Below, in pieces: positions 18,488 to 29,919 of a stretch of 37,617 nt of DNA (within the stretch, counting starts at the first letter, position 1; every line of letters starts with the position of its first letter). The notes under the pieces are model-generated. The model had not been told where the DNA came from and ran no database searches. It saw only the letters and a program-made list of their open reading frames with translations. The stretch covers positions 26,815 to 64,431 of the forward strand of contig DUEP01000002.1 in assembly GCA_011176535.1 (NCBI GenBank). The letters run 5' to 3'. This DNA comes from Anaerolineae bacterium (GTDB lineage Bacteria > Chloroflexota > Anaerolineae > Anaerolineales > DRMV01). The translations under genes and the position numbers were made by a program.

Positions 18488-18515
18488 TTGACTTTTAGAA
18501 CATCTGTGCTAAAAT
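18488..18515 (+). promoter_or_regulatory. recA promoter with -35 and -10
   Basis: TTGACT (18488-18493), a 16-nt spacer and TAAAAT (18510-18515) form a good housekeeping promoter. The start would fall near 18522, giving a leader of about 20 nt with GGGAGGAT at 18530-18537 before the recA ATG. Confidence 0.75.
18495..18512. promoter_or_regulatory. Candidate LexA (SOS) operator in the recA promoter
   Basis: TTAGAACATCTGTGCTAA is an 18-bp palindrome with 8-bp arms (TTAGAACA and TGTGCTAA, one mismatch) around TC. It fills the spacer between -35 and -10, a classic repressor position. It resembles the GAAC-N4-GTTC core of Gram-positive LexA boxes with one change. No lexA is in the window to support it. 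Confidence 0.55.
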
Positions 18516-18542
18516 AAGGGCACTTCACCGGGAGGATAGGCT

Positions 18543-19601
18543 ATGGCACGAAAACCAGACAACGGCACGGAAGACCCCCGGCGCGCGGTGCTGGAAGGCG
18601 CGCTGAGAGAAATCACCAAACGCTTCGGGGAAGGTGCCATCATGCGCCTGGGCGAGGCGCGCCATTTGCAGGTCGAGGCCATCCCTACTGGGGCGTTATC
18701 CCTGGACATCGCCCTGGGCGTCGGGGGCATCCCCCGGTCGCGGATCACCGAAATCTACGGCCCCGAATCTTCTGGCAAGACCACCCTCTGCCTGCACATC
18801 GTGGCCGAGGCTCAAAAACGAGGGGGCGTGGCCGCCTATGTGGACATGGAACACGCTCTGGATCCGGCTTACGCGGAGCGCATCGGCGTCAATGTGGACG
18901 AATTGTTCATTTCCCAACCGGATACCGGGGAACAGGCGCTGGAAATCGTTGAAACCTTGGTGCGCTCCGGCGCTGTGGATGTGGTGGTGATCGATTCGGT
19001 GGCTGCTTTGGTGCCGCGGGCCGAAATCGAGGGCGACATGGGCGACGCCACCATGGGCATGCAGGCGCGCCTGATGTCTCAGGCGCTGCGCAAACTCAGC
19101 GGGGCCATCGCCCAGACCCGCACCGCTGTCATCTTCACCAACCAATTGCGCCAGAAAATCGGCGTGCTCTTCGGCAATCCGGAGACCACCCCCGGCGGCA
19201 TGGCGCTGAAGTTCTACGCTTCGGTGCGCATGGACATCCGCCGCATCCAGAGCATCAAGGTCGGCTCGGAGATCATCGGCAACCGGGTGCGGGTGAAAGT
19301 GGTGAAGAACAAAGTCGCTCCGCCTTTCCGCCAGACAGAATTCGACATCCTTTACAACGAAGGCATCTCCCGGGAGGGCGACCTGCTGGACCTGGCCACC
19401 AACCTGGAGATCATCACCAAACGCGGATCGTTCTACTCCTACGGGGATCTGCGCCTGGGTCAGGGGCGGGAGAACGCCAAGACCTTCCTGCGACAAAACC
19501 CCGACCTGGCTGCCGAGATCGAGATGGCCGTCCGGCAGTGGTATGTGGAGCAAGAACTTTTGCCGCCCTCGGCGCTCCCCGGCGGGGCAGAAGAGGCGTA
19601 A
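18543..19601 (+). CDS. recA: Recombinase RecA
   Basis: The 352-residue product is a full-length RecA. The Walker A motif is GPESSGKT (73-80). Other visible blocks are [24 protein letters not shown], the Walker B strand [12 protein letters not shown], loop L1 ([22 protein letters not shown]), loop L2 ([37 protein letters not shown]) and the C-terminal acidic end. It catalyses strand exchange and activates LexA cleavage. It has its own promoter with a LexA-like palindrome and a strong terminator, so it is a single-gene unit. recX is not adjacent; it is about 6 kb downstream with rny. Confidence 0.99.
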
Positions 19602-29866: not shown

Positions 29867-29919
29867 AACCCCTCCCAACAGTGAAGAGCAAACCAGGGAA
29901 AACGCCAGATGCAGGTGGG

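Follow-up and report, generated by a model that had tools for sequence, protein, structure and literature searches.

The recA gene of an Anaerolineae bacterium lies behind a promoter in which an 18-bp palindrome, TTAGAACATCTGTGCTAA, is predicted to be the operator through which the cell's own LexA represses recA, a reading to which we assign a probability of roughly 0.9. The palindrome was found in a stretch of 37,617 nucleotides (the window), which we analysed together with the rest of its genome (2.27 Mb in 129 contigs) and with relatives; those recA relatives that have names are Anaerolineales or Anaerolineae genomes of the Chloroflexota. The site, its promoter, a matching box at lexA, the LexA domains, the layout of the regulon and a conserved operator base were all observed directly. 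Judged by its sequence, the site falls into the Gram-positive (Cheo-box) class, GAAC-N4-GTTC, a class also in use in this phylum. An SOS box is thereby assigned to a large group of Chloroflexota, most of it uncultured, and our literature search found no dedicated LexA study for Anaerolineae. The finding is ordinary in kind; what deserves to be followed is a conserved asymmetry of the recA operator and a membrane-protein target.

We identified recA by its score against the TIGR02012 equivalog model (544.9 bits; cut-off 325.3). Its promoter is of the sigma-70 type, TTGACT-N16-TAAAAT, and the palindrome lies about 30 bp upstream of the start codon (Table 1). The first-pass annotation had described 8-bp arms with one mismatch between TTGACT and TAAAAT, exactly inside the spacer, where a repressor would block RNA polymerase. 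The arms and their mismatch are as described, and the 12-bp core does lie wholly within the spacer, at its -10 end, in the position from which a repressor would obstruct the polymerase; the right outer arm, however, reaches into the -10 hexamer and overlaps its first three bases. The likeness to Gram-positive SOS boxes, with one core base off, also held: seven of the eight bases of GAAC-N4-GTTC match, the left half-site being the consensus GAAC and the right one carrying G in place of T at its third position (18508). TG stands at -15/-14, one base ahead of the -10 hexamer, which is the arrangement of an extended -10 element.

Table 1 Features of the recA promoter region in the window
Feature	Position	Strand	Basis
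-35 hexamer TTGACT, recA promoter	18488-18493	+	Sequence; TTGACn equally spaced in the boxed recA promoters of relatives
16-bp spacer TTTAGAACATCTGTGC	18494-18509		Sequence
Palindrome TTAGAACATCTGTGCTAA, 18 bp	18495-18512	.	Arms TTAGAACA / TGTGCTAA, 8 bp, one mismatched pair, 2-bp centre
Predicted LexA operator core GAACATCTGTGC (GAAC-N4-GTGC), 12 bp	18498-18509	.	Box at the genome's own lexA; conservation at recA of relatives
TGC abutting the -10; putative TGn extended -10 element	18507-18509	+	Sequence; role inferred
-10 hexamer TAAAAT, recA promoter	18510-18515	+	Sequence
Ribosome binding site GGGAGGA	18530-18536	+	Sequence; start codon 6 bases on
recA, 352 aa, predicted target gene	18543-19601	+	Open reading frame; TIGR02012 equivalog; RecA tree

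The 18-mer palindrome occurs once in the window with up to three mismatches allowed, and in none of 100 shuffles. A composite pattern that joins promoter and box (TTGAC, 4–6 bases, the core with at most one mismatch, TAnnnT) likewise gave a single match in the window and none in 300 Markov resamplings. The loose core alone, with up to one mismatch, is at chance level (10 seen against 12 expected), and the significance of the site therefore comes from its promoter layout and its conservation in relatives. Among the 79 recA upstream regions of relatives, 49 contain, within the promoter, a core that departs from the consensus at one position or none; shuffled core words gave an average of 0.83 loci. 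A chance palindrome within an ordinary promoter could be argued from the frequency of the bare core and from other members of the family, whose recA has no box, but the empty resamplings of the composite pattern and the conservation in place at 49 of 79 recA promoters leave this idea with a negligible probability, and the conservation in relatives already refutes it.

The genome of the window encodes one LexA above the Pfam cut-off (G000:C107). Both of its domains, LexA_DNA_bind (43.7 bits) and Peptidase_S24 (65.6 bits), score above cut-off, and its closest solved structure is 3k2z, a LexA repressor. Against the TIGR00498 equivalog it reached 104.3 bits, slightly under the cut-off of 110.95. 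The protein keeps Ala-Gly at the expected place, the catalytic serine in GDSM and the lysine in TLKYY, as read from its sequence. We read it as a divergent LexA. The promoter of its gene, TTGACA-AGAACAGGAGTTCGCGT-TATGAT, contains a perfect GAAC-N4-GTTC, GAACAGGAGTTC, in the spacer.

A perfect GAAC-N4-GTTC follows TTGAC in 26 of the 27 lexA promoters that we read in the order. The sole exception (L052), from the same family as the window genome, is doubly altered (GCACAAATGTGC), and two lexA promoters (L028 and L029) have an additional second site that ends in GTGC; these occasional GTGC or GCAC half-sites suggest that LexA tolerates them. Across the phylum, 14 of 29 lexA upstream regions hold a perfect core and nine a core with one mismatch within 300 bp, counts that are upper bounds because no promoter filter was applied. 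The first-pass annotation had proposed that the recA palindrome might represent a lineage-specific LexA site, had recommended a search of lexA and repair promoters, and had held that absence of the motif from other repair promoters, together with a different motif conserved upstream of lexA, would speak against its proposal. We found the same motif at lexA, identical in type, and in the window's own genome no box in a recognisable promoter of a further classical repair gene beyond recA and lexA. The proposal of a lineage-specific site did not survive, given the perfect cores at the genome's own lexA, throughout the order and in those 14 phylum regions. GAAC-N4-GTGC as a LexA recognition sequence distinct from the Gram-positive one draws on the frequency of GTGC at recA, the doubly altered lexA promoter and the two second lexA sites. 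Against this, GTTC is kept in 26 of 27 lexA promoters and in 38 of 38 promoters of a membrane-protein family, mostly-GTGC boxes are limited to recA, and the GTGC variants are better read as half-sites tolerated by one LexA. We consider a separate recognition sequence very unlikely, and on the lexA and membrane-protein promoters we rejected it as the motif of this lineage.

The pattern TTGAC-N4..6-GAAC-N4-GTNC-TA is present in 162 of 201 genomes of the order, and its reversed control gave nine matches in all. The genes 3' of these boxes include recA, dinB, an IMS-family Y-polymerase and radA, and also FtsK-like ATPases, a LuxR-type regulator and the membrane-protein family. The layout of promoter and box is the same at dinB (L230), the IMS-family polymerase (L293) and radA (L329) of relatives, dinB and radA being named from reading the sequence. 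It could be supposed that a dimeric repressor other than LexA uses the site, since LexA binding is a prediction and one of the targets spread most widely through the order is an uncharacterised membrane protein, not a repair gene. This is extremely unlikely: lexA, recA and, in relatives, dinB, the IMS-family polymerase and radA form the classical LexA set, and the box agrees with the GAAC-N4-GTTC described in the literature (PMC3323433). A protein of about 190 aa (MPLPPKRFLAIGAHALS...; L218-L228, L249 and L252), seen in one family of the order and matching no Pfam model, has its start 12 bp downstream of a LexA-type promoter; by position only, it is possibly ImuA- or SulA-like.

Only two of the 49 boxed recA promoters have a perfect core. 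The other 47 all deviate at the third base of the right half-site, one of eight positions, with G in 36, A in 11 and C in none. In the order scan the third base is G in 32 of 35 recA boxes versus 17 of 94 others (Fisher test, 1e-14, which ignores the relatedness of the sequences) and T in all 38 membrane-protein boxes, none of which has G. These counts indicate that the odd base at recA is conserved across the order and is not noise, and that it is for the most part the recA operator that deviates in this way. In the common layout with a 16-bp spacer the third base is position -14, so that G makes a TGn before the -10 hexamer. A consensus TATAAT -10 accompanies nine of the 11 A boxes versus two of the 36 G boxes (Fisher test, 2e-6, kinship ignored), a pattern that fits compensation within the promoter. 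The RecA tree provides only four independent comparisons of the third base with the -10, consistent in direction and too few for significance, and relatedness could therefore explain the association. We dropped a link between G and the 16-bp spacer irrespective of gene: it is significant over all genes, but once recA is removed the significance is gone (3 of 10 vs 14 of 84, p 0.38).

We tentatively propose that the altered base doubles as a weakened LexA half-site and as part of an extended -10 element. It may instead be that the conserved base serves solely to weaken LexA binding and keep basal RecA high, with the TGn as a by-product. This alternative, for which we would claim only tentative standing, gains from the A found in 11 of 49 recA boxes, which also breaks the half-site yet yields no TG, and from Bacillus subtilis, where the recA box is imperfect too. 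Pure weakening, however, could strike any of the eight core bases in either half-site, whereas all 47 deviations fall on the base at -14 (in the 16-bp-spacer layout) and never produce C. In our main reading, the recA site GAAC-N4-GTGC would be occupied by a LexA dimer, which between -35 and -10 would exclude RNA polymerase; upon DNA damage, RecA filaments would bring about self-cleavage of LexA at Ala-Gly, and recA would be transcribed. These steps of binding, repression and cleavage are modelled on established LexA biology. In the double role that we propose, the change from T to G would most likely leave LexA with a lower affinity for this box than for the one at lexA, and the same G, by creating TGn before the -10, would raise promoter strength and hence basal RecA. 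An apparent imperfection would become a testable rule, namely that degradation of the recA operator strikes a single fixed base, one that the promoter shares.

In Escherichia coli, a LexA operator also lies over the recA promoter. The repressor belongs to the same protein family as the one described here, but half-sites and spacing differ, and the E. coli LexA box, CTGT-N8-ACAG (PMC3323433), is not the motif of this site. In B. subtilis and Mycobacterium tuberculosis the motif of LexA is GAAC-N4-GTTC (PMC3323433), and the Gram-positive SOS box, or Cheo box, serves LexA of B. subtilis, M. tuberculosis and Staphylococcus aureus (PMC3323433, PMC11442139). The half-sites and 4-bp spacing at the genome's own lexA, the perfect left half-site at recA and the position over the core promoter are all as in the Cheo box, and, as in Cheo-box regulons, the targets include lexA, recA and, in relatives, Y-family polymerases. 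Unlike the Cheo box, the recA operator ends in a GTGC half-site on the right, a form kept throughout the order; unlike Cheo-box systems, the set of promoters detectable in this genome is small (recA, lexA and two membrane-protein paralogs) and leaves out uvrB and recX of the window. In the RegPrecise 3.0 paper, the Chloroflexi collection is given as five genomes and 30 TF regulogs, with LexA listed as a widespread regulator (PMC3840689), and a LexA regulog of this phylum is probably among them.

On the RecA tree, the RecA of the window is nested in its genome's own family (SH-aLRT 97). The other 15 recA genes that we read from this family have no promoter box and mostly have promoters resembling TTGCCA-N17-TACACT, so that this lineage can do without LexA control of recA. 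Presence and absence of the recA box require at least 11 changes on the tree. The simplest reading is that the genus of the window retained an ancestral operator and sister genera lost it; the tree is unrooted and the direction is not provable from it. Several relatives in the order have two recA genes (for example G025, G026, G027, G033, G035, G037, G038 and G040), and in one genome with two (L150 and L182) a perfect box precedes just one of the copies, with no box at its partner.

Scanning the window's genome with TTGA-N3..9-GAAC-N4-GT[GT]C gave five matches, against none for the reversed control. Four are promoters, those of recA, lexA and two membrane-protein paralogs (on C124 and C43), and the fifth (C5) is inside an open frame of 434 codons. 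Perfect GAAC-N4-GTTC cores number 29 in the genome; 24 fall within open frames longer than 250 codons and have no good promoter match, so a search for the motif without promoter context is uninformative. The remaining five are at lexA, at the two membrane-protein promoters, at a site on C46 and at the start codon of an mraZ-like gene. Upstream of uvrB (window position 29881) and recX (25524) there is no SOS box within one mismatch, and both genes appear to stand outside the LexA regulon here. The outcome is a short list of predicted LexA targets that includes a widespread membrane-protein family. On C46 (G000:C46:6539-6550) the perfect box lies just 3' of a -10-like hexamer, TACAAT, before a gene of 290 aa that has no Pfam match. 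The mraZ site (G000:C14:8838-8849), a perfect GAACATATGTTC, spans the start codon and adjoins an rsmH/mraW-like gene in a division cluster; both genes were named from reading the sequence, and the box, seen in a single genome, could be due to chance.

The membrane-protein family (FNYSTTDFAL...FCGIDFAGIARLF) has a hydrophobic stretch over its first approximately 150 aa and a variable tail. Its members include the two paralogs of the window's genome (G000:C124:1803, L102; G000:C43:3630, L103) and proteins of relatives (L217-L325), and no Pfam, NCBIfam, PHROG or PADLOC model matched it. Together with recA it is one of the two most frequent boxed genes in the order scan. A bolder picture, which we hold to be less likely than not, is of a recA-promoter base under two pressures and of a LexA regulon that in this order is led, beside recA and lexA, by this family and not by repair genes, the family possibly being a new SOS checkpoint protein. 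In the window's genome, the boxed membrane-protein gene on C43 shares its end with an overlapping gene for an SLT-domain lytic transglycosylase (L103:2230-2967), and in one relative (L214) an SLT gene has a LexA-type box of its own, with GTGC.
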